Shown here in pieces: positions 1 to 13,616 of a DNA stretch of 13,616 bases. The DNA is from an uncultured Oscillospiraceae bacterium (lineage in GTDB: Bacteria > Bacillota > Clostridia > Oscillospirales > Oscillospiraceae). The notes under the pieces are model-generated. The model was not told the origin of the DNA, did no database searches, and saw only the letters and a program-made list of their open reading frames with translations. A program made the translations under genes and the position numbers. The stretch's first letter is position 1. Each line of letters starts with the position of its first letter. The stretch is taken from the NCBI GenBank assembly GCA_900752285.1, contig CAADUW010000147.1, forward strand, positions 1 to 13,616, read 5' to 3'.

Positions 1-12
1 CAGTCTCAGCGA

Positions 13-45
13 AGCTCTGCAAGCTGAAATTCAGCCTGCAGAGCT
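13..45. repeat. Hairpin downstream of the PHP gene
   Basis: Arms 13-21 (AGCTCTGCA) and 37-45 (TGCAGAGCT) pair perfectly over 9 bp. After one mismatch the inner arms 23-27 (GCTGA) and 31-35 (TCAGC) pair over 5 bp around a 3-nt loop. It lies 14 bases past the stop codon of the minus-strand PHP gene, so it could end or protect that transcript. No T-tract follows on the minus strand inside the window, so it is not a standard intrinsic terminator as far as can be seen; the sequence is cut off 12 bases further on. Confidence 0.55.
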
Positions 46-58
46 GCGCTTCCGTGTA

Positions 59-724: not shown

Positions 725-825
725 AATATATCTCCTCTCGGTTGATGTAAAAACGGAACGTTGGTGGGAAATCGGAACGACTGCGCGTTCACTGTGCGCA
801 CACGGATGCGCAGCCAAACGGCAAT

Positions 826-1593
826 TTATTCTTCCTCGTCCACAATGGTGAGCTTGACGCCCTCCTGGGCGCAGAGCTCCCGGGCGAAGGCGGGGCAGGT
901 GCTGTCGGTGACGATCTCGTTGATCTCCGAAACCTCGCCGTAGGCCATGAGGCTTTCCTTGCCGAACTTGCTGCCGTCCGCCAGCAGAAAGGTCTGGACG
1001 CTCTGGCCGATGGCAAGCTTCTTGATCTCATATTCAATGTAGGTCGAAACGTTCAGCTTTCCCGCCGGGGAAACACCGGTGGCGGCAAGAAAAGCCTTGG
1101 CGCACCGGTAGCGCCCCAGAAATTCCAATGTGCTTACATCGGAAACGGAGTTGGTCCGCCGGTTCAGAAGCCCCGGCAGAACAATCAGTTCCACATTGGG
1201 AAACGCGGGGGCCCGGGACACGATGGAGAGGTTCCCGGTAATGATGGTCACATGCTTTCCGGGATCCAGAAAATTCATCAGCTGCATGGTGGTGGTGCCG
1301 GAGTCTATGTACAGGGTATCCTTGTCCTGAATCAGATTCTGGGCATAGCGGGCGATCCGCTGCTTGGCATCGGCGTGCAGGTCCGACCGGTGGGTGAACA
1401 GCGGCACCTCCTGGGTGCTGCGGATCCGGACGCCGCCGTAAATCTTTTCCACCGTACCGGAGGACACCAGCTTCGCCACGTCGGCGCGGACGGTGTTCAT
1501 GGAGGTCCCAAAGGTTTTCTGCAGTTCCTCCATGGAAATACTGCCCCGCTGGGCAATGAGGGCAAGCATCTGCTTCTGTCTGACTTCCTTCAC
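826..1593 (-). CDS. DeoR-family transcriptional regulator, likely controls the divergent inositol operon
   Basis: A 255-residue DeoR-family regulator. Residues 1-57 form the winged helix-turn-helix (recognition region around TSMNTVRADVAKL, ending with the family's EKIYGGV segment). The C-terminal half is the sugar-phosphate sensing domain, with the signatures YIDSGTTT, TGNLSIV, a LLNRRTNS segment and LLADGSKFGK. Length matches the family (about 250). It starts with GTG at 1593-1591, preceded by AAAGGAG at a 9-base spacing; no better ATG exists. DeoR proteins are normally repressors released by a phosphorylated sugar. Bacillus subtilis IolR, the inositol repressor, is a DeoR protein whose inducer is 2-deoxy-5-keto-gluconate-6-phosphate. 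That compound needs IolC, which is not in this operon, so the inducer here may differ. It is divergent to the operon and has its own promoter at 1693-1721. Family assignment is certain; its target is inferred from position. Confidence 0.93.
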   Translation of the reverse strand: MKEVRQKQMLALIAQRGSISMEELQKTFGTSMNTVRADVAKLVSSGTVEKIYGGVRIRSTQEVPLFTHRSDLHADAKQRIARYAQNLIQDKDTLYIDSGTTTMQLMNFLDPGKHVTIITGNLSIVSRAPAFPNVELIVLPGLLNRRTNSVSDVSTLEFLGRYRCAKAFLAATGVSPAGKLNVSTYIEYEIKKLAIGQSVQTFLLADGSKFGKESLMAYGEVSEINEIVTDSTCPAFARELCAQEGVKLTIVDEEE

Positions 1594-1692
1594 GGCGGGT
1601 CACTCCTTTCGGCACGGCGGCTGCCCATGGATTTTCCGGTTTCCATTCGGATTCTGAGATGTTTTCATGCTTCGGAGCCGCAATTCAAGTTT

Positions 1693-1721
1693 ACTATATC
1701 CTGTTTGCACCGGCTTGTCAA
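1693..1721 (-). promoter_or_regulatory. Sigma-A promoter for the DeoR-PHP unit
   Basis: On the minus strand, a perfect -35 TTGACA (1721-1716) and a -10 TATAGT (1698-1693) are separated by exactly 17 bp. Transcription should start near 1686, giving a leader of about 93 nt before the GTG start of the regulator. A short inverted repeat, GTTTT-GT-AAAAC (1724-1735), abuts the -35 box on its upstream side. Confidence 0.8.
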
Positions 1722-1749
1722 CTGTTTTGTAAAACTGGTAACTTCAAAT

Positions 1750-1772
1750 TTGTGATTATGGAAATATCACAA
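1750..1772. promoter_or_regulatory. Palindromic operator candidate between the divergent promoters
   Basis: TTGTGAT (1750-1756) and ATCACAA (1766-1772) are perfect 7-bp inverted arms around a 9-bp A+T-rich spacer. The palindrome lies between the two divergent -35 boxes, about 64 bp upstream of the expected operon start and about 75 bp from the expected start of the regulator. The inner TGTGA/TCACA half-sites resemble CRP half-sites, but the spacer is 11 bp instead of 6, so it is not a CRP site. It could be bound by the adjacent DeoR protein or by a global carbon regulator. Confidence 0.45.
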
Positions 1773-1790
1773 GAAAATGACAGGTAATCG

Positions 1791-1819
1791 TTGACAGCTT
1801 GTGTAGAGTATGGTATAAT
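1791..1819 (+). promoter_or_regulatory. Consensus sigma-A promoter of the operon
   Basis: A perfect -35 TTGACA (1791-1796) and a perfect extended -10 TGGTATAAT (hexamer 1814-1819) are 17 bp apart. Transcription should start near 1825-1827. A promoter this close to consensus is strong unless repressed, which fits an operon under a divergent DeoR repressor. Confidence 0.9.
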
Positions 1820-1833
1820 CCGGGATGAAAAAG

Positions 1834-1853
1834 TCTGCCCGTCTCCGGGCGGA
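1834..1853 (+). other. 5'-leader stem-loop of the operon mRNA
   Basis: TCTGCCCG (1834-1841) pairs with CGGGCGGA (1846-1853), 8 bp with one G-U pair and a 4-nt loop, within 10 nt of the expected transcript 5' end. No U-tract follows, so it is not a terminator. It may protect the 5' end of a mRNA of about 11.5 kb. The AGGAGG of the first gene is 25 bases further down and remains free. Confidence 0.5.
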
Positions 1854-1891
1854 TGAAACACTTCACAATTTTATTTAGGAGGATATTGATT

Positions 1892-2953
1892 ATGGCTAAG
1901 GTAAGAGTAGGCGTCGCGGGTTACGGCACCATCGGTCAGCGTCTGGCAGACGGCGTTGCCATGCAGGAGGATATGGAGCTGGTCGGTATTGCCGATCTGG
2001 CTCCCACTCTGGCGATCCGGGCGCTGCGGGAAAATGACATGATCGGCGCCAACGGCGTCAAGTATAACCTCTATCTGGTAAACGGCGCAGACAAGGCTGC
2101 TTTCGACGCCCATGACATTCCCGTTGCCGGTACCTTCGAGGAACTGTGCAGCAAGGTGGACATCATGCTCGACTCCGCTCCCGGCGGCGTGGGCGCCAAG
2201 AACAAGGTCATCTATGAGAAGATGGGCGTGAAGGCCATCTTCCAGGGCGGCGAGAAAAACAGCGTTGCCGATGTGTTCTTCCACGGCTATGCCAACTATG
2301 AAAAGGGCCTGGGCCAGAACTATCTGAAGCTGACCTCCTGCAACACCACAGGTCTGATCCGTACCGTGGACTGCCTGGACCGTGCCTATGGCATTGACAA
2401 AGTCGCCATCACCATCATCCGCCGTGTTGCCGACCCCGGTGATTACCATCGCGGACTGACCAACGCCCTGCAGATTGACAAGGCTCCCTCCCATCAGGCC
2501 GTTGACCTGATGACCATCATGCCTCATGTGCAGGCTACCGGTATTCTGGTACATACCCCTGTGACCCACGGCCACATCATCACCGTTCTGGCCTCCGGCA
2601 AGGATGGCCGGAAGATCACCCGGGAAGAGGCTCTGGCAGCCTTCCGCGCTCATCCCCGTATCCGCACCGTCACCATCGACGAGGGCTTCATGGGCAACGC
2701 TTCCTTCTTCAAGTACGGCCGTGACCTGGGTAACCGCCGGGGCGACATCTATGAGATTGGCCTGTGGGAAGACTCCGTGGTAGAGAGCGGCAACGACATC
2801 ATGTATGCCATCCACATCCCGCAGGAGTCCGTCACCATTCCCGAGACCATGGACGCCATCCGTGCCGCCATGAAGATGCAGCTGACCCGGGAAGAGGGCA
2901 CTGCCATGACCAACAAGTATCTGAAGATCGGTCGCTTCAAGAAGCAGCAGTAA
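1892..2953 (+). CDS. Type II (archaeal-type) glyceraldehyde-3-phosphate dehydrogenase homologue; proposed D-malate-semialdehyde dehydrogenase (phosphorylating)
   Basis: A 353-residue protein of the type II GAPDH family found mainly in archaea (usual length about 335-345), unlike the usual bacterial GapA. The Rossmann motif is GYGTIG (10-15). The catalytic cysteine is C150 in SCNTTGL, and an HGH motif (H226, H228) matches the archaeal catalytic-histidine region. D35 ends the second beta strand, which suggests NAD rather than NADP. The start at 1892 follows AGGAGG (1878-1883); an in-frame ATG at 1853 lacks a site. The family makes an acyl phosphate from an aldehyde, NAD(P)+ and phosphate. As the first gene of an inositol operon beside a PGK homologue, I infer that it oxidises D-malate semialdehyde to malyl phosphate. 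The segment I recall as PSHHGPD in archaeal enzymes reads PSHQAVD here (199-205), which may mark a changed substrate site. Ordinary GAPDH activity remains possible. Confidence 0.9.
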   Translation: MAKVRVGVAGYGTIGQRLADGVAMQEDMELVGIADLAPTLAIRALRENDMIGANGVKYNLYLVNGADKAAFDAHDIPVAGTFEELCSKVDIMLDSAPGGVGAKNKVIYEKMGVKAIFQGGEKNSVADVFFHGYANYEKGLGQNYLKLTSCNTTGLIRTVDCLDRAYGIDKVAITIIRRVADPGDYHRGLTNALQIDKAPSHQAVDLMTIMPHVQATGILVHTPVTHGHIITVLASGKDGRKITREEALAAFRAHPRIRTVTIDEGFMGNASFFKYGRDLGNRRGDIYEIGLWEDSVVESGNDIMYAIHIPQESVTIPETMDAIRAAMKMQLTREEGTAMTNKYLKIGRFKKQQ

Positions 2954-2972
2954 TTGATTTAAGGAGAAGCTT

Positions 2973-4226
2973 ATGCGATTCGGGATCAAAACGCTGGACG
3001 AGGCGGAGCTGAAGGGCAAGACCGTCCTGTGCCGGGTGGACATGAACCAGCCGGTGGATCGGGAAAAAGGCACCCTGAAGAGCACCAACCGCATCGCCGC
3101 CTGCGCGCCCACTGTCCGGGAGCTCAGCGACCGGGGAGCAAGAGTGGTGCTGCTGGCCCATCAGGGCAGCGATATTGAGTACAAGAATTTCTACTGCACG
3201 AAGCCCCATGCCGCCGTACTGGAAAAGCTTCTGGGGCGGGAAGTCAAGTGGATCGACGACGTGTGCGGTCCGGCTGCCCGGCAGGCGATCAAAAGCCTGC
3301 GGGACGGAGAGATTCTCCTGCTGGATAACGTGCGCTACGTGTCCGAGGAACAGACCCTCTTCGAAATGAAGCTGAAACTGACCCACGAACAGCAGGCAAA
3401 AACGCTCCTCGTGGAAAAGCTGGCGCCCCTTGCGGATCTGTACGTGTGCGACGCCTTCGCGGCTGCCCACCGGGATCAGCCCAGCCTCTGCGGCTTTGAG
3501 CAGGTGCTGCCCTCCTACATGGGCAGGCTCTTCGAGAAGGAATACTGCACCGTGTCTCAGGTCATGGAGGCTCCGGTCCGTCCCTGCGTATTCGTACTGG
3601 GCGGCGCCAAGATTTCCGACGCCTTCCTGATGATGAACACCGTTCTCAGCCGGGGTGTGGCGGATAAGATCCTCACCGGCGGCCTGGTTGGCAACATCTT
3701 CCTGACCGCACTGGGGAAGGAAATCGGCAGCGGCAGCGTGAACTTCATTCTGAAATCCAACTACGGTGAGTATATTGACAAGGCAAAGGAGCTGTACGCC
3801 CGGTACGGTGAAAAGATCATTCTGCCTGTGGATCTTGCGTGGGTGGAGGACGGCGTGCGGAAGGAAGCCGTGCTGGGTCAGGTGCCCGGAGACATTACCT
3901 CTCTGGACATCGGCAGCCGGACGGCGGAAGCTTACCGGAACGAGATCCTTGCGGCAAAGACCGTGTTCGTCAACGGCCCCATGGGCGTGTTTGAGCAGGA
4001 ACCCAGCGAGCTGGGCACAAAGGCCGTCTGGCAGGCGCTGGCGGATACGGACGGCTTTACCGTCCTGGGCGGCGGCGACAGCATCACCGCTACGGAGAAG
4101 TATCAGCTGGCCTCCCGGATGGGTTACATCTGCACCGGCGGCGGCGCGCTGATCCGGTTCCTGACCGGCGAGGAGCTGCCCGTCGTGAAGGCACTCCGCC
4201 ACGGCGCGGGACTTTGCAAAGACTGA
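2973..4226 (+). CDS. Archaeal-type phosphoglycerate kinase homologue with altered phosphate site; proposed malyl-phosphate:ADP phosphotransferase
   Basis: A 417-residue PGK fold closest in pattern to archaeal PGKs (VLGGAKISD, TGGLVGN, VNGPMGVFE and a TGGGAL-RFLTGEELPV end). The ADP/ATP-side motifs are intact, so it should still move phosphate from an acyl phosphate to ADP. On the other side, D23 and N25 (RVDMN), R40, H63, the R of NVRY and the R of AAAHR are present. However, the HLGRP / HQSRP / HQGKP loop reads HQGSD (63-67), so the Arg/Lys that contacts the 3-phosphate of phosphoglycerate is S66. That fits a substrate with a carboxylate instead of a phosphate, such as malyl phosphate. AAGGAG precedes the ATG, 19 bp after the GAPDH gene; the two form the usual acyl-phosphate relay. 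The family is certain; the substrate is inferred. Confidence 0.9.
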   Translation: MRFGIKTLDEAELKGKTVLCRVDMNQPVDREKGTLKSTNRIAACAPTVRELSDRGARVVLLAHQGSDIEYKNFYCTKPHAAVLEKLLGREVKWIDDVCGPAARQAIKSLRDGEILLLDNVRYVSEEQTLFEMKLKLTHEQQAKTLLVEKLAPLADLYVCDAFAAAHRDQPSLCGFEQVLPSYMGRLFEKEYCTVSQVMEAPVRPCVFVLGGAKISDAFLMMNTVLSRGVADKILTGGLVGNIFLTALGKEIGSGSVNFILKSNYGEYIDKAKELYARYGEKIILPVDLAWVEDGVRKEAVLGQVPGDITSLDIGSRTAEAYRNEILAAKTVFVNGPMGVFEQEPSELGTKAVWQALADTDGFTVLGGGDSITATEKYQLASRMGYICTGGGALIRFLTGEELPVVKALRHGAGLCKD

Positions 4227-4239
4227 TTGAGGTGAAAAA

Positions 4240-5082
4240 ATGGATATTTCCAAGAAAAATGAACTGAACGCGCTGGCAGTGCAGATTCGTATGGCGCTGC
4301 TGGAGGCAATCCATTCTCTGGGCTCCGGACACATCGGCGGTGCACTGAGCATTGCGGATGTTCTGGCAGTGCTCTACGGCGGCGAAATGCGGGTGGATCC
4401 CAGGAATCCCCAGTGGCCCGAGCGGGACAAGCTGGTGGTTTCCAAGGGACACGCCGGCCCTGCGGTCTACGGAACGCTGGCGGTGAAGGGCTTTTTCCCC
4501 TATGAGGAGCTGAAGACCCTGAACCGGCCCCACACCCGTCTGCCCAGCCACTGCGACCGGAACAAGACCCCCGGCGTGGATATGACCACCGGCTCTCTGG
4601 GGCAGGGCACCTCCCTTGCCTGCGGCATGGCCATGGGCGACAAGCTGAAGGGCCGGGACAGCCGGATCTTCCTGATCGTCGGCGACGGTGAAAGCGACGA
4701 GGGACAGGTCTGGGAAGCCTTCTCCTTTGCAGCTGCCAAAAAACTGGACAATCTGGTGGTGCTGCTGGACTGGAACAAGCGGCAGCTGGACGGCTGGACC
4801 GACGACGTGATGCCCATGGGCGATTACGTGGAGAAGTTCCGTGCCTTCGGCTTTGACACCGTGAAGGTGGACGGCAACGATGTGGAGGCTCTGTCCGAAG
4901 CACTGGCCCACACCCGGACGGGCAACGGAAAGCCCTTTGCCATCGTCATGGACACCGTGAAGGGCTACGGAATCAAGGACGTGGCGGAAACCGTCATGAA
5001 CCACTCCCTGCCGGTAAGCGATGAGCAGTACGCAAAATGGATGGCCGAGCTGAAATCCGAGCTCGCCGCGCTGGAGGGCTGA
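4240..5082 (+). CDS. Split transketolase, N-terminal (thiamin diphosphate-binding) subunit
   Basis: A 280-residue protein with the pyrophosphate-binding half of transketolase. The thiamin-diphosphate motif GDGE (148-151) ends at N179 in LDWNK. H31 (GSGH), H71 (SKGHAG) and the GSLGQG loop (118-123) are the conserved active-site parts. A late histidine (NHSLPVS) takes the place of the conserved histidine of a WHG-type motif. Two-gene transketolases are common in Clostridia and archaea, and this half is inactive without the next gene. GAGGTG lies 6 bases before the ATG, 13 bp after the PGK stop. Transketolase moves a two-carbon glycolaldehyde unit from a D-threo ketose to an aldose. In this operon the likely donor is 5-dehydro-2-deoxy-D-gluconate, the product of IolB, with glyceraldehyde-3-phosphate or another sugar phosphate as acceptor. 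The substrate is inferred; apulose-4-phosphate-type transketolases are another two-gene group. Confidence 0.93.
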   Translation: MDISKKNELNALAVQIRMALLEAIHSLGSGHIGGALSIADVLAVLYGGEMRVDPRNPQWPERDKLVVSKGHAGPAVYGTLAVKGFFPYEELKTLNRPHTRLPSHCDRNKTPGVDMTTGSLGQGTSLACGMAMGDKLKGRDSRIFLIVGDGESDEGQVWEAFSFAAAKKLDNLVVLLDWNKRQLDGWTDDVMPMGDYVEKFRAFGFDTVKVDGNDVEALSEALAHTRTGNGKPFAIVMDTVKGYGIKDVAETVMNHSLPVSDEQYAKWMAELKSELAALEG

Positions 5083-5085
5083 GCT

Positions 5086-6051
5086 ATGATGGAAATTGTT
5101 TACAACGGTGAGATGGATAAGCGGGCCTGCAAAGAGGTTCTGGGCAGAGTCATCCCCGCTCTGGTGAAGGAAAATCCCGACATTGTGTATCTGGACGCGG
5201 ATCTCATGAGCTGCATCGGCACCCTGAAGGGGACCCGGGATGTGGCGGACCGTGCCATTAACTGCGGCATTGCCGAGGCAAACATGATCGGTGTGGCCTG
5301 CGGTCTGGCTTCTGCCGGCTTCAAGCCCATTGTCCATACCTTCGGCCCCTTCGCCTCCCGGCGCTGCTTCGATCAGGTGTTCCTGAGCGCGGGCTATGCC
5401 AAAAACGATATTACCATCATCGGTACCGACCCCGGCGTCATGGCTGCCATGAACGGCGGCACCCATATGCCCTTTGAGGATATGGCGCTGTACAACACCA
5501 TTCCCGGCGCCACCGTCATCGACGTGACCGACCCCACCCTGCTGGAGTCCGCCATCCGTCAGTGCATCGACCGTCCCGGCGTCAAATACATCCGGGTGGG
5601 ACGGAAGAACTATGCAAAGGTCTACGCCGAGGGAAGCCTAATTCCCATCGGCAAGGCAGTCACCCTCCGGGAGGGCAAGGACGCGGTGGTCTTTGCTTCC
5701 GGCATTCTGGTTCACGAGGCCATGAAGGCGGCGGACCTGCTGGCAAAGGAGGGCGTGGAGATTTCCGTCCTCGACATGTTCTCCGTGAAGCCGCTGGACG
5801 AGGAAGCGGTAGTTTCCTATGCGAAGAAAACCGGCGCGGTGGTCGTAGCGGAGAACCACAACCGGCACGGTGGCCTGTACGGCTCCATCGCCGAGGTTCT
5901 GGTGGAGAAATGCCCCGTTCCCGCTGCCTGCGTGGCGGTTGAGGATGAGTTCGGCGAAGTCGGCCCCCAGAGCTATCTGCAGGAGCGCTTCGGCCTGACC
6001 GCGGAGCACATTGTCAGCCAGGTCAGGGCGGTTCTTGCCAGAAAGGGCTGA
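5086..6051 (+). CDS. Split transketolase, C-terminal subunit
   Basis: A 321-residue partner of the preceding gene, with the pyrimidine-binding domain (about 10-175) and the C-terminal domain (about 190-320). E64 in GIAEANM is the glutamate that activates thiamin diphosphate. ASRRCFDQ, GGTHMPFEDMAL and YIRVGRKNY are further family segments. Where split transketolases usually show a DLSxSTxT-like strand, this one has DLMSCIGT (39-46), a change in the region that helps bind the donor's phosphate group; this rests on memory of the family. The ATG is 3 bp past the previous stop with GGAGGG inside the end of that gene, so the two halves are probably translationally coupled, as expected for a 1:1 complex. 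A second ATG follows directly (5089) and could also be used. Cytosolic. Confidence 0.92.
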   Translation: MMEIVYNGEMDKRACKEVLGRVIPALVKENPDIVYLDADLMSCIGTLKGTRDVADRAINCGIAEANMIGVACGLASAGFKPIVHTFGPFASRRCFDQVFLSAGYAKNDITIIGTDPGVMAAMNGGTHMPFEDMALYNTIPGATVIDVTDPTLLESAIRQCIDRPGVKYIRVGRKNYAKVYAEGSLIPIGKAVTLREGKDAVVFASGILVHEAMKAADLLAKEGVEISVLDMFSVKPLDEEAVVSYAKKTGAVVVAENHNRHGGLYGSIAEVLVEKCPVPAACVAVEDEFGEVGPQSYLQERFGLTAEHIVSQVRAVLARKG

Positions 6052-6054
6052 GCC

Positions 6055-7308
6055 ATGCATTTGAGCTTCGGCTTCGGGACCTCCACCCAGGAGGTGGAGG
6101 TTCCGGAACAAAATCTGATGGGCGTGCTCCACGCAAACGAGGTCCCCACGGGACTTGTGGGGGAAGCGGAGGTGCGCAGAGCGCTGGAAAACCCCATCGG
6201 CACCCACCGTCTGCGGGAGATCGTAAAGCCCGGTGAGAAGATTGCCATTGTGACCAGCGACATTACCCGCCCCATGCCCACCTATAAGGTCATGCCCGCC
6301 CTGCTGGACGAGCTGTATGCCGCGGGGGCCCGGCGGGAGGACATTACGCTGGTGTTTGCGCTGGGCTCCCACCGGCACCATTCCGAAGAGGAAAAGCGGA
6401 AGCTGGCAGGGGATCGTGCCTTCGGGGAGATCGCCTGCGTGGACTCCGATCCTGCCGACTGCGTGCACATGGGACGCACAAAGGCCGGAACCCCCGTGGA
6501 TATTACCCGGGTGGTGGCGGAAGCGGACCGGCGGATCTGCCTCGGCAATATCGAGTACCACTATTTCGCGGGCTACTCCGGCGGCGCCAAAGCGATTATG
6601 CCCGGCGTTTCCACCCGGAACGCCATCCAGTGCAACCATTCCATGATGGTTCGCCCGGAGGCCTGTGCCGGTGCGCTGGAAACCAACCCTCTGCGGATGG
6701 ACATTGAGGAAGCGGGTGCGATCTGCGGCATTGACTTTATCGTCAACGTGGTGCTCAGCGAGCACAAGGAGATCCTCCGTGCCGTGGCGGGCGACCCGGT
6801 GAAGGCGCACCGGGAGGGCTGCGCGTTCCTCGATACCCTGTATCTGAAAAAGCTGCCCCACGGGGCGGACATCGTCCTCGTCAGTCAGGGCGGCGCGCCC
6901 AAGGATCTGAACCTGTATCAGACCCAGAAGGCGCTGGATAACGCCCGGCACGCGGTCAATCCGGGGGGCATCATCATTCTCATCGGCTCCTGCAAGGAGG
7001 GGCTGGGAGAAAAGGTGTTTGAGGAGTGGATGACAAAGTCCCCTACCCCGGAGTCCATGATCGAGCGGATCGGCCGGGACTTCCAACTGGGCGGCCACAA
7101 GGCTGCCGCCATTGCCATGACGCTGCAAAAGGCGGATGTATGGCTGGTGTCGGATATGGAGCCGGACTTTGTAAAGTCCATCTTCCTGACCCCGAAGGAA
7201 AGTGTCCAGCAGGCGCTGGATGATGCTTTCCGGAAGCTTGGAAAGGACGCAACCGTCCTCGCCATGCCCTACGGCGGCTCTACCCTGCCGCGAATTGTGC
7301 ATAACTGA
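6055..7308 (+). CDS. LarA-family nickel-pincer 2-hydroxyacid racemase; proposed malate racemase
   Basis: A 417-residue LarA homologue (Lactiplantibacillus LarA is 424). The catalytic set is complete: D69 and R72 (TSDITRP), H106 in GSHRHH, H169 (EYHYF), K179 (GGAKAIMPG), H195 (CNHSMM), and Y288, Q289, K292 (YQTQK). In LarA the lysine equivalent to K179 carries the nickel-pincer nucleotide and two histidines act as acid and base. Relatives racemise lactate, malate, phenyllactate and similar acids, or epimerise gluconate. Between transketolase and malic enzyme, D-malate to L-malate is the most economical reading. The cofactor-building LarB, LarC and LarE are not in the window and must be supplied from elsewhere. 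It starts 3 bp after the transketolase gene with GAAAGGG upstream. The family is certain; substrate malate is inferred. Confidence 0.9.
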   Translation: MHLSFGFGTSTQEVEVPEQNLMGVLHANEVPTGLVGEAEVRRALENPIGTHRLREIVKPGEKIAIVTSDITRPMPTYKVMPALLDELYAAGARREDITLVFALGSHRHHSEEEKRKLAGDRAFGEIACVDSDPADCVHMGRTKAGTPVDITRVVAEADRRICLGNIEYHYFAGYSGGAKAIMPGVSTRNAIQCNHSMMVRPEACAGALETNPLRMDIEEAGAICGIDFIVNVVLSEHKEILRAVAGDPVKAHREGCAFLDTLYLKKLPHGADIVLVSQGGAPKDLNLYQTQKALDNARHAVNPGGIIILIGSCKEGLGEKVFEEWMTKSPTPESMIERIGRDFQLGGHKAAAIAMTLQKADVWLVSDMEPDFVKSIFLTPKESVQQALDDAFRKLGKDATVLAMPYGGSTLPRIVHN

Positions 7309-7310
7309 CG

Positions 7311-7342
7311 GGAAACGGGGCCGCAGACGGCCGACCGTTTCC
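7311..7342 (+). other. Stem-loop inside the operon, between racemase and malic enzyme genes
   Basis: GGAAACGG (7311-7318) pairs with CCGTTTCC (7335-7342). Inside it GGCCG (7319-7323) pairs with CGGCC (7328-7332) around a 4-nt loop, with a 2-nt bulge. It lies in the longest gap of the operon (68 bp), between the racemase stop and AGGAGG (7363-7368) of the malic enzyme gene. No T-tract follows, so it should not terminate. It is more likely a processing or stability element that sets different levels for the two halves of the mRNA. Confidence 0.6.
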
Positions 7343-7376
7343 ATCGCATCGCGAAAATATCAAGGAGGAAAAACCA

Positions 7377-8549
7377 ATGGATTACGCAAAGGAATCCCTG
7401 CGGCTCCACGGCGAGTGGAAGGGCAAGATCGAGGTGCGGGCTACCGTGCCCGTAGAGACAAAGGACGACCTGTCTCTGGCATATACCCCCGGCGTTGCCC
7501 AGCCCTGTCTGGAGATCCAGAAGGACATCAATAAATCTTACGAACTGACCCGGCGGCACAACCTGTGCGCCGTTATCACCGACGGCTCCGCCGTCCTGGG
7601 CCTGGGCGACATCGGCCCCGAGGCCGGCATGCCCGTTATGGAAGGCAAGTGCGTGCTGTTCAAGGCCTTCGGCGATGTGGACGCCTTCCCTCTGTGCGTC
7701 AAGACCAAGGACGTGGACGAGTTCGTCAACGCCGTTTACCTGATTTCCGGTTCCTTCGGCGGCATCAATCTGGAGGATATTTCTGCCCCCCGGTGCTTTG
7801 AGATTGAGCGGAAGCTGAAGGAAAAGTGCGACATTCCCATCTTCCACGATGACCAGCACGGCACCGCCGTCATTACGCTGGCAGGTCTGACCAACGCGCT
7901 GAAGGTAGTCGGCAAGAAGAAGGAGGACGTGAAGGTGGTCACCTCCGGCGCGGGCGCCGCTGCTATCTCCATTGTGAAGCTCCTGCTGTCTGCCGGTTTC
8001 AGGAACATCGTCATGACCGACCGGAAGGGCGCCATCTATGAAGGGCGGGACGGTCTGAACTGGATCAAGGAAGAAATGGCTCAGGTTACCAACCGGAACA
8101 TGGAGAAGGGCACTCTTGCCGACGTTATCAAGGGCGCGGATGTGTTCATCGGCGTTTCCGCTCCCGGAACCCTGACCACCGACATGGTTCGTACCATGAA
8201 CAAGGACGCCATTGTCTTTGCCTGCGCCAACCCCACCCCCGAGATTTTCCCGGACGATGCCAAGGCCGGCGGCGCAGCCGTGGTCTCCACCGGACGGAGC
8301 GACTACCCCAACCAGATCAATAACGTGCTGGCGTTCCCCGGCATTTTCCGGGGTGCGTTCGACGTGCGCGCTTCCGACATTAACGAGGAAATGAAGATGG
8401 CCGCTGCCAGGGCGCTGGCCGAGCTGATTTCCGATGACGAACTCTCCGCGGATTACATCATTCCCAAGGCATTTGATAAGCGTGTCGGCCCCGCCGTTGC
8501 CAAGGCGGTTGCACAGGCTGCCCGGGATTCCGGCGTAGCCAGAATCTGA
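7377..8549 (+). CDS. Malic enzyme (L-malate to pyruvate + CO2), short bacterial type
   Basis: A 390-residue oxidative decarboxylase of the short bacterial NAD(P)-malic enzyme type (about 390-410, without the phosphotransacetylase tail). Catalytic Y36 (AYTPGVAQP) and K91 (MEGK) are present, as are the metal ligands E133/D134 and D158 in FHDDQHGTA. The cofactor loop SGAGAAA is followed by MTDRKG, where the aspartate suggests NAD. CANPTPEI and a QINNVLAFPG segment are further signatures. AGGAGG lies 8 bases before the ATG. It forms pyruvate, CO2 and NAD(P)H from L-malate. Such genes are normally near organic-acid transporters; here it sits between a LarA racemase and inositol genes. I infer that it finishes the C4 branch of inositol breakdown. 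It does not use D-malate in known cases, which explains the racemase. Oxaloacetate decarboxylation is a possible side activity. Confidence 0.94.
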   Translation: MDYAKESLRLHGEWKGKIEVRATVPVETKDDLSLAYTPGVAQPCLEIQKDINKSYELTRRHNLCAVITDGSAVLGLGDIGPEAGMPVMEGKCVLFKAFGDVDAFPLCVKTKDVDEFVNAVYLISGSFGGINLEDISAPRCFEIERKLKEKCDIPIFHDDQHGTAVITLAGLTNALKVVGKKKEDVKVVTSGAGAAAISIVKLLLSAGFRNIVMTDRKGAIYEGRDGLNWIKEEMAQVTNRNMEKGTLADVIKGADVFIGVSAPGTLTTDMVRTMNKDAIVFACANPTPEIFPDDAKAGGAAVVSTGRSDYPNQINNVLAFPGIFRGAFDVRASDINEEMKMAAARALAELISDDELSADYIIPKAFDKRVGPAVAKAVAQAARDSGVARI

Positions 8550-8564
8550 AAGGAGAAATGAAAA

Positions 8565-9473
8565 ATGGCCATGTTTGATGCCGCCAAGGTAAAGCTGGGC
8601 ATTGCGCCCATTGGCTGGTGCAACGATGACATGCCCGAGCTGGGCGCCGAGAATACCTTCCGCCAGACCGTCAGCGAAATGGCGCTGGCAGGGTTCACCG
8701 GCTGCGAGATCGGCAACAAATACCCCAGCGACCCGAAGGAACTGAAACATCAGCTGGATCTGCGGGGCATGCGGATCGCCAGCCGCTGGTTCTCTTCTTT
8801 CCTGCTGGCCAAGCCCTACGAAGAGGTAGAGGCGGACTTTATCGCGAATCTGGATTTCCTGGCTGCCGTGGGTGCTGACCGGATCAATGTCAGCGAGCAG
8901 AGCGGTTCCATTCAGGGCAAGCTGGATGTGCCCATTCTGACGGGCAACCACAAGCCCGTCATGGACGACGCCCAGTGGGCGCGGTTCTGCGACGGCCTCA
9001 ACAGACTGGGCAAGGTGGCGTCGGACCGGGGCTTCAAGCTTTGCTTCCATCATCACATGGGCACCGTGGTGCAGACCGCGGCGGAAACCGACCGGATGAT
9101 GGCAAACACCGACCCCCGGTATGTGTTCCTGTGCTATGACACCGGTCACTTCACCTTCGCCGGTGAGGATCCCCTCGCCATGCTGAAAAAGTATTCCGAC
9201 CGGATTGGACACGTGCACCTGAAGGATATGCGGCTGCCGGTAGTTGCCGAGGCCCGGGAGCACAACTGGAGCTTCCTGCAGGCTGTCCGCAACGGCGCCT
9301 TCACGGTTCCCGGCGACGGCGGCGTGGACTTTGACTCCGTGTTCGAGATTCTGTCCCAGTCCCACTACGAGGGCTGGCTGCTGGTGGAAGCCGAGCAGGA
9401 TCCCGCCAAGGCGGATCCTCTGGAGTACGCCCAGAAGGCACGGGCTTATATCCGCGCCCATACGGGCCTGTAA
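8565..9473 (+). CDS. iolE: Inosose dehydratase (2-keto-myo-inositol dehydratase)
   Basis: A 302-residue TIM-barrel protein of the xylose-isomerase-like superfamily; Bacillus subtilis IolE is of similar length (about 297). The opening LGIAPIGWCNDDMPELG and the EIGNKYP segment are IolE signatures. Later come FHHHMGTVVQ, CYDTGHF and HVHLKD, which hold the metal-binding histidine and acidic residues of the fold. It dehydrates scyllo-inosose, the product of IolG, to 3D-(3,5/4)-trihydroxycyclohexane-1,2-dione, the substrate of IolD. AGGAG stands 9 bases before the ATG at 8565; an ATG at 8558 reads only six codons before a stop. It lies 15 bp after malic enzyme and 12 bp before iolB, within one transcript. 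Cytosolic. Confidence 0.95.
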   Translation: MAMFDAAKVKLGIAPIGWCNDDMPELGAENTFRQTVSEMALAGFTGCEIGNKYPSDPKELKHQLDLRGMRIASRWFSSFLLAKPYEEVEADFIANLDFLAAVGADRINVSEQSGSIQGKLDVPILTGNHKPVMDDAQWARFCDGLNRLGKVASDRGFKLCFHHHMGTVVQTAAETDRMMANTDPRYVFLCYDTGHFTFAGEDPLAMLKKYSDRIGHVHLKDMRLPVVAEAREHNWSFLQAVRNGAFTVPGDGGVDFDSVFEILSQSHYEGWLLVEAEQDPAKADPLEYAQKARAYIRAHTGL

Positions 9474-9485
9474 GAGGGTGTGACC

Positions 9486-10304
9486 ATGACCTATTTCTCC
9501 AAAAACGACAGCCTGAAAGCAGGCTACAACGCCTATATTGACGCGGCTGCCGATGATATGGGCACTCAGATGGACGTGGGTCTGCTGGTACTGGAGCCGG
9601 GCGATACATACAGGATCGAGGAAGTCGAAAAGGAGTGCGCCGTATTGCTGTTTTCCGGCGACGTGACCTTCGGCTGGAACGGTGAAGCCGTCCGGGGCGC
9701 CCGCCCCGACTGCTTCCGGTATGAGGCTTACTGCCTGCTGGCACCCCGGAAAACGCCCATCACCCTGACCGCTCACAGCCACAGTGAGCTGTACATTCAG
9801 AAAACCCTCAATGACCGGGACTACACCCCCGTGCTCTACACCCCCGAAACCGTTCAGACCCAGCATGCGGGCGCAAACGGCGAACTGATGGGCTGTATGC
9901 GCCGGGAGATCAAGACCTTTTTCGACTATGACAATATGCCCCAGTCCAATATGGTGCTGGGCGAGGTGCTGAACTTCCCCGGCAAATGGTCCTCCTACCC
10001 GCCTCACCACCATCCCCAGCCCGAGGTCTACTTCTACCGGTTTGACCATCCCCAGGGCTTTGGCGCGGGCTTTGCCAATGGCGAAATCTACAAGACGGGA
10101 CATAACGGCCTTGCGGTGATCACCAGCGGCTTCCATTCCCAGACCGCCGCACCCGGCTACGCCATGTGCTATGCCTGGGGTATCCGGCATCTGGACGGCG
10201 ACCCCTGGAAAAAGACCCGGATCGACGATCCGGAGCACGAGTGGCTCTGGAAGCGTGACGCCAACGAACACATTTTCAAAATGGAAGGGGAGCAAACAAA
10301 ATGA
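9486..10304 (+). CDS. iolB: 5-deoxy-glucuronate isomerase
   Basis: A 272-residue bicupin; Bacillus subtilis IolB has about 271. The metal site is HHH (174-176) with E180 (HHHPQPEVYFYRF) and H217 (GFHSQ). It converts 5-deoxy-D-glucuronate to the ketose 5-dehydro-2-deoxy-D-gluconate, the branch point where this operon seems to leave the known route. I chose ATG 9486 because GAGGG ends 7 bases before it; an in-frame GTG at 9480 would be too close to that site. The last codons overlap the iolD start by 4 bp (ATGA), indicating translational coupling. KduI, a related cupin isomerase, is less likely given the IolD/IolE neighbours and the sequence pattern. Confidence 0.95.
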   Translation: MTYFSKNDSLKAGYNAYIDAAADDMGTQMDVGLLVLEPGDTYRIEEVEKECAVLLFSGDVTFGWNGEAVRGARPDCFRYEAYCLLAPRKTPITLTAHSHSELYIQKTLNDRDYTPVLYTPETVQTQHAGANGELMGCMRREIKTFFDYDNMPQSNMVLGEVLNFPGKWSSYPPHHHPQPEVYFYRFDHPQGFGAGFANGEIYKTGHNGLAVITSGFHSQTAAPGYAMCYAWGIRHLDGDPWKKTRIDDPEHEWLWKRDANEHIFKMEGEQTK

Positions 10305-12235
10305 TTGAGACCATCCGTCTGACCATGGCCCAGGCTCTGGTTCGCTTTCTGGAAAATCAGTACATCGATGTGGACGGCGTGGTGACCCCCTTCGTCCGCG
10401 GTGTGTTCATCATCCCCGGTCACGGCAATGTGGTGGGCCTGGGACAGGCAATGACCCAGGAGGCCCACCGGCTGGAAGTGTATCAGGGAAAGAACGAGCA
10501 GGGCATGGCGCAGGCTGCCGTTGCCTTTGCCAAGCAGATGAAGCGTAAGCAGATCTGCGTTGCCACCTCCTCCATCGGTCCCGGCGCTGCCAATATGGTT
10601 ACTGCCTGCGGCACTGCAACCTCCAATAATATTCCTCTGCTGGTGCTGCCCGGCGATACCTATGCCTGCCGCCAGCCCGACCCTGTGCTGCAGCAGGTGG
10701 AGCACATCAATTCCATGGCAACCACCACCAATGACGCGTTCAAGGCGGTTTGCCGCTACTGGGATCGGATCGTCCGCCCCGAGCAGCTCATGAGTGCCTG
10801 CCTGAACGCATTCCGCACGCTGACTGACCCCGCCAATACCGGCGCCGTCTGCCTTGCCATGCCGCAGGACGTGGAGGGCGAGGCTTACGACTACCCTGTG
10901 ACCTTCCTGCAGAAGCGGGTGTGGCGGCTGGAGCGCCGCCCGGCAACCGAGGCTGCTCTGGAGGAAGCTGCCGCTGCCATCCGTGCCGCGAAGAAGCCTA
11001 TGCTGATCTGCGGCGGCGGCGTCCGCTATTCCGAGGCACATCGGGAGTTCCGGGAGTTTGCCGAGAAAACCGGCATCCCCTTTGGCGAAACTCAGGCGGG
11101 CAAGAGCGCCATTGAGTGGACGCACCCCCTGAATCTGGGCGGTCTGGGCGTTACCGGCTGCTCCGCCGCCAATGAAATCGCCGTGGACGCGGATCTGATC
11201 ATCGGCGTGGGCACCCGTTACACGGACTTCACCACCGCTTCCCGGTGGCTGTTCCGGCACGATGCCAAATTCGTCAATATCAACGTTTCCGAGTTCCAGG
11301 CGCTGAAGCTGGACGCGGTGCCCGTGATTGCCGACGCGAAGGACGCTCTGCCCCGGCTGCTGGCAAAGCTGGATGGCTACAAGCCTGCCTATGCCGGGCA
11401 GATCGAAGCCGCCCGGCAGAAGTGGGCGAAGGAGCTGGTTCGTCTGGACGGCGTGGAGTTTGAGGATACGGACGAGTGGCGCCCCATTATCAACGACGCC
11501 AACTATGCCTCCGCCCGGAAGTTTGCCCACGACGTGAACGCTCAGCTTTGCCAGACTACCGCTCTCGGTGCCATCAATGCCATGATGGAAGAGGGAGATG
11601 TAGCCATTGGCGCGGCGGGCAGTCTGCCCGGCGACATGCAGCGGATGTTCCGCCCCACCGGCATCGATACCTATAACATGGAGTACGGCTACTCCACCAT
11701 GGGTTACGAGGTGGCAGGCGCACTGGGCGTGAAGCTGGCCATCGGTGAAGACCACGAAGTCTATTCCTTCTGCGGCGACGGCAGCTTCAACATGCTTCAT
11801 GGGGAGCTGATCACCGCCGTGCAGGAGCACAAAAAGGTCAACATCTGCGTGTTTGACAACGCCAGCTTCGGCTGCATCAACAACCTGCAGGTGGGCCACG
11901 GCAACGCTACTCTCTGCACCGAGCTGCGGGCACGGGGAGAGGACGGACTCCTGTCCGGAAGCTTCCTGAACATCGATTACGCCAAGGTGGCGGAGGCTTA
12001 CGGCTGCAAGGCTTACTCCGTCCGCACCATGGGTGAGCTGAAGGCCGCCGTGGAGGACGCCAAAACCGTGAAGGATCAGCCGGTTCTCTTTGACATCAAG
12101 GTACTGCCCAAGACCATGACCGACGGCTACGGCTCCTGGTGGCGGGTCGGCGACACGGAGGTTTCCGAGAATCCCGCCAACCTGAAAGCCTACGAAGATC
12201 ATCTGGCGCATCTGAAGGACGCCAGAAAATATTAA
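10301..12235 (+). CDS. iolD: 3D-(3,5/4)-trihydroxycyclohexane-1,2-dione hydrolase, ring opening
   Basis: A 644-residue thiamin-diphosphate enzyme of the acetolactate-synthase superfamily, matching IolD length (about 637-645). E66 (KNEQGM) activates the cofactor. The binding motif starts at GDGS (492-495) and ends in DNASFGCINN. The long N-terminal start TIRLTMAQALVRFLENQY and the VLPKTMTDGYGSWWRVG end are IolD signatures that acetolactate synthases lack. It hydrolyses the cyclic dione to 5-deoxy-D-glucuronate. It overlaps iolB by 4 bp and is followed by iolG after 19 bp. No signal peptide; cytosolic. A second thiamin-dependent enzyme in the same operon, beside transketolase, means that the pathway depends heavily on thiamin. 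Confidence 0.96.
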   Translation: MIETIRLTMAQALVRFLENQYIDVDGVVTPFVRGVFIIPGHGNVVGLGQAMTQEAHRLEVYQGKNEQGMAQAAVAFAKQMKRKQICVATSSIGPGAANMVTACGTATSNNIPLLVLPGDTYACRQPDPVLQQVEHINSMATTTNDAFKAVCRYWDRIVRPEQLMSACLNAFRTLTDPANTGAVCLAMPQDVEGEAYDYPVTFLQKRVWRLERRPATEAALEEAAAAIRAAKKPMLICGGGVRYSEAHREFREFAEKTGIPFGETQAGKSAIEWTHPLNLGGLGVTGCSAANEIAVDADLIIGVGTRYTDFTTASRWLFRHDAKFVNINVSEFQALKLDAVPVIADAKDALPRLLAKLDGYKPAYAGQIEAARQKWAKELVRLDGVEFEDTDEWRPIINDANYASARKFAHDVNAQLCQTTALGAINAMMEEGDVAIGAAGSLPGDMQRMFRPTGIDTYNMEYGYSTMGYEVAGALGVKLAIGEDHEVYSFCGDGSFNMLHGELITAVQEHKKVNICVFDNASFGCINNLQVGHGNATLCTELRARGEDGLLSGSFLNIDYAKVAEAYGCKAYSVRTMGELKAAVEDAKTVKDQPVLFDIKVLPKTMTDGYGSWWRVGDTEVSENPANLKAYEDHLAHLKDARKY

Positions 12236-12254
12236 AATTACGGGGGAAAACGAC

Positions 12255-13292
12255 ATGGAGAAGATTCTGAAAATCGGTATTATCGGCTGCGGCGCCATCG
12301 GTAAGGATCACTGCCGCCGAATCATGGACACCGTTCCCGGCGCCACTGTGGTTGCGGTTTCCGACTATGTGCCCGCTGCTGCCGACGCGGTTGCGGAAAA
12401 GTACGGCATCCGTTCCTTCGGCAACGACTGCGACGGCATGATCAAAGATCCCGAGGTGGAGGCTGTGGTCATTACCTCCATTGACCCCACCCATCACGAT
12501 TACGTGATGAAGACCCTCGCCGAGAAGAAGTGGTGCTTCTGTGAGAAGCCCCTGAGCCTGAACGGCAAGGACTGCGAGGAGATCATCAACAAGGAGCTGG
12601 AGATCGGTCACCGTCTGGTGCAGGTCGGCTTCATGCGCCGCTATGACCGGGGCTATGCCGAGATGAAGCGGATCATCGAGTCCGGCGAGCTGGGCGCTCC
12701 CCTCGTCATCAAGGCCTGCCACCGGAACGTTTCTCAGGGTCCCGGCTTCAAGACCGAGAACGGCGTCACCAACGTGGCCATTCACGAGCTGGATATCTGC
12801 CGCTGGCTGCTGGGCGATGAATACGCCGACGTGCAGTGCGTGAAGGTCCGCCAGAGCGCCAACTCCACCAAGGGCTACGATAACCCTCAGGTCATGCTGA
12901 TGCGGACGAAGAAGGGCTGCTTCATTGACGTGGAGGTTCAGGTCGCCGATGGTTACGGCTACGACATCCAGTGCGAGGTGGTCTGCGAGAACGGCACCGT
13001 CAAGCTGCCCGATCCCTACGCCGTGGTTCGCCGCTCCCGCCCCGCCGGCTGGGACAAGCTGAACCCCGCCGAGAGCATGCCCATCATGACCGACTGGAAG
13101 GAGCGCTTCATCGAAGCCTACGACATTGAGCTGTGCAAGTGGGTGGAGAGCGTCCACAACGGCAAGCTGACCGGCCCCTCCGCCTGGGACGGCTACGTGG
13201 CATGCGTAGCGGGCGACGCCCTGAATGCCTCCCGCGGCACCTCCCAGTTCCGCCCGGTGGAAACCATGGAAAAGCCCGAAATGTACAAATAA
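12255..13292 (+). CDS. iolG: Inositol 2-dehydrogenase (Gfo/Idh/MocA family)
   Basis: A 345-residue NAD-dependent dehydrogenase matching Bacillus IolG in length and in many segments, such as CEKPL, RLVQVGFMRRYD, GYDIQCE and GPTAWDGY-like GPSAWDGY. The Rossmann motif is GCGAIG (11-16), and D37 after the second strand fits NAD. K98 (EKPL) and H177 (AIHELD) match the catalytic Lys and His. The Asp four residues before that His in B. subtilis IolG (D172) is N173 here. It oxidises myo-inositol to scyllo-inosose, the first step. GGGGG precedes the ATG by 8 bases. It is the last gene, 15 bp before the terminator stem. It could also accept scyllo- or D-chiro-inositol, and the Asn may mark such a shift; iolG is still the best name given its neighbours. 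Confidence 0.92.
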   Translation: MEKILKIGIIGCGAIGKDHCRRIMDTVPGATVVAVSDYVPAAADAVAEKYGIRSFGNDCDGMIKDPEVEAVVITSIDPTHHDYVMKTLAEKKWCFCEKPLSLNGKDCEEIINKELEIGHRLVQVGFMRRYDRGYAEMKRIIESGELGAPLVIKACHRNVSQGPGFKTENGVTNVAIHELDICRWLLGDEYADVQCVKVRQSANSTKGYDNPQVMLMRTKKGCFIDVEVQVADGYGYDIQCEVVCENGTVKLPDPYAVVRRSRPAGWDKLNPAESMPIMTDWKERFIEAYDIELCKWVESVHNGKLTGPSAWDGYVACVAGDALNASRGTSQFRPVETMEKPEMYK

Positions 13293-13307
13293 TCCCCCAA
13301 AAACCGC

Positions 13308-13338
13308 AAATGAGCCGCCCGAAAGGGCGGCTCATTTT
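13308..13338 (+). terminator. Intrinsic terminator of the operon
   Basis: A 13-bp perfect stem (13308-13320 with 13325-13337; core TGAGCCGCCC / GGGCGGCTCA) carries a GAAA tetraloop and is followed by TTTT (13335-13338). It begins 15 bp past the iolG stop. The A-run before and the T-run after it would let it act in both directions. Confidence 0.92.
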
Positions 13339-13431
13339 GTGTCCGGAAGGGATGGAAAATGCAGATAAATTGCTGTTTAGCGCACGGCACAAAGCGCTCT
13401 TGGCTCTCCCTCTGAGGGTAAGCGAAGCGCA

Positions 13432-13516
13432 GTCGCGGGAGTGAATGACATGATAAGTGGCATGTCAGAGCCGCGACCGGGTTGTCCGCAGGCAACCTGT
13501 CACGGCGAATGCCGTG
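13432..13516. repeat. Cluster of stem-loops, probable palindromic intergenic repeat
   Basis: Three hairpins follow each other. First, GTCGCGG (13432-13438) pairs with CCGCGAC (13471-13477), enclosing TGACATG (13446-13452) with CATGTCA (13461-13467). Second, GGTTGTC (13480-13486) pairs with GGCAACC (13491-13497), with one G-U pair. Third, CACGGC (13501-13506) pairs with GCCGTG (13511-13516). The final GTCACGGC...GCCGTGACTGAG resembles a palindromic repeat that I remember as frequent between genes in gut Oscillospiraceae; I could not verify this here. It could also be a small structured RNA. Confidence 0.5.
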
Positions 13517-13524
13517 ACTGAGAC

Positions 13525-13555
13525 TGTCAAAAAAGGGCTTTGCCCTTTTTTGACA
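13525..13555. terminator. Bidirectional intrinsic terminator
   Basis: A perfect 14-bp stem (13525-13538 with 13542-13555) has a 3-nt TTT loop and contains AAAAAAGGGC / GCCCTTTTTT. The A6/T6 tracts lie in the stem, so it could stop transcripts from both sides. On the plus strand it backs up the terminator at 13308-13338; on the minus strand it would end a gene beyond the right edge. Confidence 0.75.
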
Positions 13556-13616
13556 AAAGGATTGCAGTCTGCTGCGCGCACACTTTCAGCCTGAGTTGTA
13601 TTTTCTGTCAGGTACA

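Follow-up and report, generated by a model that had tools for sequence, protein, structure and literature searches.

We describe a ten-gene operon in an uncultured Oscillospiraceae bacterium (assembly GCA_900752285.1, contig CAADUW010000147.1, positions 1–13,616, with genes read on the forward strand; this whole stretch of 13,616 nucleotides is called the window). The operon quite probably degrades 5-dehydro-2-deoxy-D-gluconate, the ketoacid derived from myo-inositol, by a transketolase cut and not by a kinase and an aldolase, and then leads toward malate. A transketolase-dependent, kinase-free pathway is the reading best supported by the comparisons below, all of which were made on sequences. 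A literature search covering few subscription journals and no bioRxiv preprints found no description of such a pathway, in agreement with an earlier note on this DNA, which knew of none.

The operon and its genes

The ten genes lie on the forward strand (1892–13292), separated by gaps of -4 to 68 bases, and make up a single compact operon preceded by a consensus promoter match. They follow the order type II glyceraldehyde-3-phosphate dehydrogenase (GAPDH-II), phosphoglycerate kinase (PGK), transketolase N half, transketolase C half, LarA, malic enzyme, IolE, IolB, IolD and IolG:

1892–2953, forward strand: type II GAPDH homologue (NF003251 387.9 bits and TIGR01546 290.8 bits, both over cut-off)
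2973–4226, forward strand: PGK homologue (PF00162, 384.5 bits)
4240–5082, forward strand: transketolase, N-terminal half (PF00456; closest solved chain 6yak, a split transketolase)
5086–6051, forward strand: transketolase, C-terminal half (PF02779, PF02780), with an Asp115/Asn123/GTHMP/Lys174 signature
6055–7308, forward strand: LarA homologue of the LarAH6 malate racemase type (NF052593 571.3 bits, cut-off 500)
7377–8549, forward strand: malic enzyme (PF00390, PF03949; closest solved chain 5cee, an NAD-dependent malic enzyme, 458.9 bits)
8565–9473, forward strand: IolE, inosose dehydratase (TIGR04379 404.8 bits, cut-off 290)
9480–10304, forward strand: IolB/KduI family isomerase, a diverged IolB (PF04962, 156.8 bits)
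10301–12235, forward strand: IolD, ring-opening hydrolase (TIGR04377 867.9 bits, cut-off 715)
12255–13292, forward strand: IolG-like inositol dehydrogenase (NF052679 364.5 bits, under the cut-off of 540)

Open reading frame and family searches confirmed this gene set and its coordinates as the earlier note had given them. They also bore out its statement that the operon has no iolC, iolJ or iolA: family searches found none of the three among the 12 named genes of the window, smaller open reading frames lying outside that search. The family assignments are uneven in strength. IolE, IolD, GAPDH-II and LarA pass NCBIfam cut-offs, and PGK, both transketolase halves and malic enzyme are named from Pfam or sub-cut-off NCBIfam matches. 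IolB (TIGR04378 95.9 bits, under the cut-off of 205) and IolG (190.7 bits with a second NCBIfam model, also under its cut-off of 355) owe their names to family resemblance. GAPDH-II has an alternative open start at 1853.

A proposed route from inositol to malate

The front of the route would be that of the classical myo-inositol pathway, with which the window shares IolE and IolD, both over curated cut-offs. IolG, IolE, IolD and IolB would oxidise, dehydrate and open the ring and isomerise the product to 5-dehydro-2-deoxy-D-gluconate. From there the classical pathway proceeds with the IolC kinase, an IolJ or DUF2090 aldolase and IolA, for which the window operon shows no gene. Its products are dihydroxyacetone phosphate and malonate semialdehyde, whereas the predicted transketolase cut would yield a C2 unit and a C4 acid.

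The transketolase would take the C5–C6 ketol, likely onto a phosphorylated aldehyde; our first guess for the acceptor, an assumption, is glyceraldehyde-3-phosphate, which would give xylulose-5-phosphate. 5-Dehydro-2-deoxy-D-gluconate is (3R,4S), so the loss of C5–C6 leaves (R)-malate semialdehyde, the oxidation of which gives D-malate. This remainder would resemble glyceraldehyde-3-phosphate in shape, with CH2-COO- replacing CH2-O-PO3. Its oxidation by GAPDH-II in the presence of phosphate would give D-malyl phosphate, from which PGK would pass the phosphate to ADP, yielding D-malate and ATP, and LarA would turn D-malate into L-malate. Malic enzyme (an Ldh_2 dehydrogenase in some relatives) would carry L-malate onward, likely to pyruvate. 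Malic enzymes use L-malate; since the route forms D-malate, it requires a racemase. The stereochemical argument of the earlier note, from a D-threo ketose end through D-malate to a racemase ahead of malic enzyme, is thus sound on paper.

On paper, the balance would be inositol + acceptor + 3 NAD(P)+ + ADP + Pi to pyruvate + CO2 + ketose phosphate + 3 NAD(P)H + ATP. The earlier claim that no ATP is spent holds for the steps of the operon itself; ATP would be spent later if hexose phosphates are rephosphorylated in the pentose phosphate route. Phosphoketolase was present in two of 50 GAPDH-II genomes, which makes the pentose phosphate route a likelier outlet for the C2-derived ketose phosphate than phosphoketolase cleavage of xylulose-5-phosphate.

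A transketolase with an altered phosphate site

Both halves of the window transketolase have their thiamine-diphosphate domains, and the catalytic Glu is present. Human His416 and Asp424, which we take to be a phosphate-site and a hydroxyl-site residue of ordinary transketolases, are kept in the human enzyme and in the Carboxydothermus split transketolase; the window protein has Asp115 and Asn123 at these positions and so departs from a transketolase of phosphorylated ketoses. The literature search found no paper on the roles of these residues. The same His to Asp and Asp to Asn changes occurred in 48/48 transketolases of the GAPDH-II group and in 11/11 from the sister architecture described below. 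The first group comprised the window, copies more than 50% identical to it in loci L001–L080 and five copies elsewhere in such genomes, and was thus picked by identity, whereas the second was picked by place; duplicate loci L113 and L114 and matches under about 200 aligned residues were omitted. Glu64, at the position of human Glu366, was found in all 48 members of the GAPDH-II group, and Lys174, next to Arg173, in 47 of the 48 and in the whole sister group. Lys174 is a candidate for binding the carboxylate. When 101 sequences were placed in a tree, all 76 Asp/Asn tips fell into a single clade with no foreign tip inside (support 0.913).

We infer from these alignments that the phosphate site was rebuilt for a shorter, carboxylate-ended ketose. 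The changed residues are what the earlier note's proposal of a transketolase acting on a non-phosphate ketose requires.

Some operon loci have no transketolase, and its loss there was ruled out: 12 of 14 genomes with iol genes and a transketolase-free operon locus carry one elsewhere (eight copies 61–73% identical to the window N half, four C halves with the signature), in two cases (L120 and L121) together with malic enzyme. Asp/Asn split transketolases with GTHMS in place of GTHMP were seen at L120 (5937–7298), L121 (12907–13848) and L035 (5542–6510) and possibly act on another acid-sugar substrate. The copies at 5937 in L120 and 12907 in L121 carry the signature yet were labelled housekeeping, and they account for the 2/20 Asp rows in that group.

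A precedent exists in sulfoquinovose degradation, where SqwGH transfers a C2 unit from a sulfonated ketose to glyceraldehyde-3-phosphate (PMC11659671). There, as in our proposal, a ketose bearing an acid group in place of phosphate is the C2 donor. That pathway differs in its sulfonate, its two cutting rounds and its sulfoacetaldehyde end, and the part of the source available to us describes no GAPDH/PGK/LarA module (PMC11659671). By this analogy, the proposed route would combine a sulfoquinovose-type transketolase cut with the initial steps of classical inositol breakdown.

GAPDH-II and PGK with a predicted non-glycolytic role

The SCNT active-site stretch with its Cys was found in 79/79 GAPDH-II homologues over 330 residues. 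We predict that the operon GAPDH-II is a phosphorylating malate-semialdehyde dehydrogenase and that the operon PGK uses D-malyl phosphate as an acyl-phosphate donor to ADP.

In pig PGK the 3-phosphate is held by Arg65, Arg122 and Arg170 (PMC7729029). The window PGK does not have all three arginines of a glycolytic PGK: Ser66 stands at the Arg65 position, and the counterparts of Arg122 and Arg170 are kept. Among 71 operon PGKs this position held Ser in 68 and Asp in two, with one gap, whereas 20 housekeeping PGKs had Lys (11) or Arg (9); the comparison took in PGKs longer than 380 residues. All 71 keep Asn25, Arg40, His63, Arg121, Arg167, Lys213 and Gly366–Asp369, and 70 keep Asp23. The closest solved chain to the operon PGK, 2cun, has Lys at the Arg65 position, so the change to Ser was not simply inherited with this relative.

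A housekeeping PGK of at least 510 bits was present in 20/20 related genomes, and a second PGK (350–399 bits) in 19 of them, the exception being G030. An ordinary GAPDH, separate from GAPDH-II, was present in 19/20 (exception G021; in G018 it is in two fragments). These copies rule out the operon pair as the sole glycolytic PGK and GAPDH of the cell. Together with the changed PGK phosphate site, they fit the non-glycolytic job that the earlier note had assigned to GAPDH-II and PGK.

They also bear on a first alternative, in which inositol follows the classical pathway with kinase and aldolase encoded elsewhere in the genome, and the transketolase, GAPDH, PGK and malic enzyme form a helper set for central metabolism. 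The housekeeping PGK and ordinary GAPDH already present in relatives argue against such a set, as do the changed phosphate sites of both PGK and transketolase, and the classical route has no place for a malate racemase.

Predicted malate racemase and malic enzyme

The solved chain closest to the operon LarA is 6d6z (Mar2, 412.6 bits), and its curated family is LarAH6. Mar2 Lys351 probably binds the second carboxylate of malate (PMC7583248). By alignment this residue, in a GHK motif, corresponds to Lys349 of the window LarA, and the motif was found in 55/59 LarA proteins. Of the exceptions, L027 and L036 are without it, L071 has it one residue off (GYHK), and L018 runs into a contig end. From the curated family score and Lys349, we predict that the operon LarA is a malate racemase; the earlier note had cast it in this role, and the curated malate-racemase model classes it likewise. 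The part of the Mar2 paper available to us leaves the in vivo role of that enzyme open (PMC7583248), whereas the operon LarA has a predicted role in a pathway. L027 (14643–15902) and L036 (9377–10615) belong to spirochaete-labelled inositol operons that hold GAPDH-II and PGK with a different LarA; L027 also holds an iron-containing alcohol dehydrogenase nearest to glycerol-1-phosphate dehydrogenase, below cut-off.

At five loci a gene of the Ldh_2 (malate/L-lactate dehydrogenase) family lies between LarA and IolE, in the place of malic enzyme, which is absent from the locus in all five; the closest NCBIfam models of this gene score below cut-off. This replacement is consistent with malate as the product, as had been proposed.

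Carnitine degradation offers a parallel, leading from malic semialdehyde to D-malate and on to pyruvate and CO2 (PMC11353897). It shares the oxidation of malic semialdehyde to D-malate with the proposed route but relies on an ATP-free malic semialdehyde dehydrogenase and on a D-malate dehydrogenase, not on a racemase and malic enzyme (PMC11353897).

The gene set recurs in relatives

An alignment scan of species genomes with GAPDH-II confirmed at least 562 relatives, of which the best 80 were studied as loci; as these were found via GAPDH-II, the conservation counts are conditional on it. Judged by tblastn at 38% identity or more, PGK was present in 72 of the 80 loci, LarA in 58, each transketolase half in 46, IolD in 42, IolE in 41, IolB in 37 and malic enzyme in 28, and many contigs stop within the cluster. 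GAPDH-II, PGK, LarA, both transketolase halves, IolE, IolB and IolD were united in 25/80 loci, a recurrence that exceeds chance. These complete loci showed seven arrangements, 16 of the 25 having that of the window; genes kept together despite changes of order are usually functionally linked. By record title, most of the 80 loci are Clostridia metagenome-assembled genomes, many from gut or rumen, and some are labelled Spirochaetales, Treponema, Chloroflexi or Planctomycetaceae.

Co-distribution was followed in two samples. Sample A held 297 genomes of one order, drawn evenly with the operon-bearing G006 as centre; a completeness of at least 90 was requested and is not shown in the records, so absences may be gaps in the assemblies. 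IolE scored over cut-off in 31/297 genomes. GAPDH-II (E value 1e-30) occurred in 7/297, all within these 31, and IolC over cut-off in 12 of the 31 and in none of the seven. Hypergeometric probabilities, not corrected for kinship, were 7e-8 for the seven of seven with IolE and 0.019 for the lack of overlap with IolC, or 7e-7 and 0.031 without G006; the numbers partly depend on the choice of this centre genome.

Sample B consisted of 50 of the 80 GAPDH-II loci, chosen by the analyst and searched as genomes. Of these, 27 had the fuller cluster, 14 had iol genes but no transketolase in the locus, and nine had no IolE in the locus. IolE scored over cut-off in 44 of these 50, IolC in one and IolA in three, counts that argue against a classical pathway encoded elsewhere. 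The proposed pathway is set apart from the classical one because the kinase and the semialdehyde dehydrogenase were tested for and found missing. One carrier bearing a strain name, Lachnospiraceae bacterium FE2018 (L077), has GAPDH-II, PGK, LarA, malic enzyme and the transketolase halves; its genome encodes IolE, and no IolC in it scored over cut-off.

A sister architecture without GAPDH-II, PGK and LarA

Seventeen IolE genomes of sample A had neither IolC nor the full operon, and we inspected the 20 IolE neighbourhoods that they contain. The typical order was IolD–IolB, DeoR, transketolase N and C, malic enzyme and IolE, with no GAPDH-II, PGK or LarA. This architecture was seen in regions L093, L095–L100, L105, L108–L110 and L217–L221, with malic enzyme in most. 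Both transketolase halves lay in the IolE region in 11/17 genomes, and in three more (G270, G323, G333) they lay a few kilobases from another IolE copy; transketolase, malic enzyme, IolE, IolB and IolD shared one region in 8/17. No LarAH6 LarA over cut-off was found in the 17 genomes, and a lower-scoring LarA was found in five. GAPDH-II was encoded elsewhere in 5/17, beside a PGK of 40–66% identity in the four read. In L125, L126, L127 and L129, from sister-type genomes, a GAPDH-II of about 67–68% identity adjoins a PGK of 40–66%, and no further window gene matched in the stretch read around the pair.

These regions suggest a second alternative: the transketolase cut may be the common core, with malate semialdehyde oxidised by other enzymes and GAPDH-II, PGK and LarA an optional, ATP-saving add-on. 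The alternative overlaps our preferred explanation and is compatible with it for the window, and the sister transketolases bear the same Asp/Asn signature. Against it, 9/17 of the genomes yielded no aldehyde dehydrogenase at an E value of 1e-50 (seven of the nine being without GAPDH-II), and inspection by eye, with no family search, found no candidate oxidising enzyme between transketolase and malic enzyme in the sister regions that were read. We regard this alternative as rather unlikely. Among nine IolC genomes in which no sister cluster was seen, eight had an aldehyde dehydrogenase of about 450 bits, which by coordinates directly adjoins IolE in five of the eight, as expected for IolA.

A second ring-opening chemistry

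Two Clostridia-labelled genomes showed no IolE at an E value of 1e-60 and instead held IolM/IolN/IolO-like clusters (L023, 159–9924; L042, 205–9005). In both, GAPDH-II, PGK and transketolase directly follow genes for an ABC transporter, a pair of zinc dehydrogenases, a hydrolase of the IolN family and an IolO-like epimerase, and L023 additionally has LarA and malic enzyme. The IolN family hydrolase of L042 scored 275.8 bits (cut-off 245), with the L023 copy 92% identical, and the IolO-like epimerase of L042 scored 272.9 bits (below the cut-off of 300). In L059 an IolN-type gene follows GAPDH-II, and the locus has no PGK or transketolase. The Thermotoga-type IolM/IolN/IolO route, which continues through tagaturonate, also opens the ring without a kinase; an IolN-type gene adjoins GAPDH-II in three loci, whereas the window uses IolE, IolD and IolB. 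The GAPDH-II/PGK/transketolase set therefore seems able to follow inositol-derived ketoacids in general.

IolN/IolO/IolM-type chemistry would yield a 5-ketohexonate with an extra hydroxyl. A third alternative is accordingly that the transketolase substrate in the window is another keto acid, from another inositol isomer or a sugar acid, with a C4 product such as tartrate semialdehyde. The L023 and L042 clusters and the sub-cut-off scores of IolB and IolG are consistent with it, as is the acceptance of tartrate by malate racemases (PMC11770544). IolE and IolD, both over their cut-offs, speak for the usual ring opening, and LarAH6 and malic enzyme suit malate; we consider this alternative improbable.

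Observations that weigh against the proposed pathway

Several observations count against the kinase-free transketolase pathway as drawn. Twelve IolE genomes of sample A have neither IolC nor GAPDH-II, and seven of them unite transketolase, malic enzyme, IolE, IolB and IolD without GAPDH-II, PGK and LarA. No aldehyde dehydrogenase was found in these seven at an E value of 1e-50, which leaves the oxidation of malate semialdehyde there, and any racemisation, unexplained. Three IolC genomes (G222, G246, G318) also hold the sister cluster, so another substrate may be served there. The full operon is present in only two of the seven GAPDH-II genomes of sample A (G006 and G011; 87–89% identity), the other five GAPDH-IIs lying away from IolE (four at 68–70%, and G228 a 61–63% fragment at contig ends). 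In sample B, 5/50 genomes had no IolE at an E value of 1e-60. G030 has GAPDH-II with IolE, IolB and IolD, but no second PGK and no transketolase match at an E value of 1e-40, and G038 showed only transketolase copies without the signature. Transketolases without a demonstrated link to inositol (L120 at 5937, L121 at 12907, and L035) carry the signature too. The changed phosphate site, moreover, may hinder a phosphorylated acceptor as well.

Two further points speak at the same time for the classical pathway encoded elsewhere. G049 carries IolC in addition to the module, and in a rumen clade a phosphoglycerate mutase lies beside the operon, which also suits a glycolytic GAPDH–PGK pair. The evidence on the source genome, too, is limited to the window. 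Set against the IolC and IolA counts, the housekeeping enzymes and the racemase, these points leave that alternative very improbable in our judgement.

Neighbouring genes and signals

Further features flank the operon:

59–727, reverse strand: PHP-domain phosphoesterase-like protein (PF02811, PF13263)
826–1593, reverse strand: divergent DeoR-family regulator (PF00455/PF08220)
1791–1819, forward strand: promoter-like site TTGACA-17-TATAAT, 12/12, with TG before the second hexamer (consensus match only)
13308–13337, no strand assigned: 13-pair hairpin 3' of IolG, terminator-like on the reverse strand only

The promoter-like match, of sigma-70 type, ends 72 bases 5' of the GAPDH-II start. Positions 1560–1960 hold three promoter-like sites, compared with a mean of 0.5 in shuffled sequence. 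No T run follows the hairpin stem on the forward strand, where it would be a weak terminator. The DeoR-family regulator likely controls the operon; at 38% identity or more (tblastn), its gene was found in 18/80 loci and the PHP-domain gene in 19/80. The two genes adjoin in many relatives, and family scores point to no function for the PHP-domain protein.

In 15 loci (L006–L012, L015–L017, L019, L026, L033, L040 and L051) the operon adjoins HAD phosphatases, as many as four of them consecutively, and a metalloenzyme of the phosphoglycerate mutase type, often accompanied by a PHP protein and a LacI regulator. They could strip phosphates off phytate-derived inositol phosphates, or the mutase could be glycolytic.

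Implications for inositol use

In a survey published in 2022, an inositol cluster had to include three or more of iolB, iolC, iolD and iolE; 1,024 genomes had only three, the fourth being found elsewhere in 810 (PMC9430895). Incomplete sequence, assembly error and frameshift are possible reasons given there for a missing gene (PMC9430895). Kinase-free inositol users could hide among such cases. Faecalibacterium prausnitzii A2-165 was reported to respond to inositol (PMC10051675), yet the survey, in the part available to us, reports the species as without inositol clusters (PMC9430895).

We propose, as a broader view that we think fairly likely, a "carboxylate glycolysis" in which a dedicated transketolase/GAPDH/PGK/racemase set handles acid sugars in the place of sugar phosphates and draws ATP from D-malyl phosphate. 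It would operate on two ring-opening chemistries (IolE/IolD/IolB and IolN-type). Many gut Clostridia, along with some spirochaetes and Chloroflexi, would then use inositol unphosphorylated. If true, D-malyl phosphate would be a new intermediate, and the route would assign a concrete substrate to a malate racemase as well as to bacterial homologues of type II GAPDH and PGK. The prediction can be tested across many uncultured gut Clostridia. Plant foods commonly contain inositol and phytate, and cells using this route would save the ATP of IolC and gain one ATP from malate semialdehyde.

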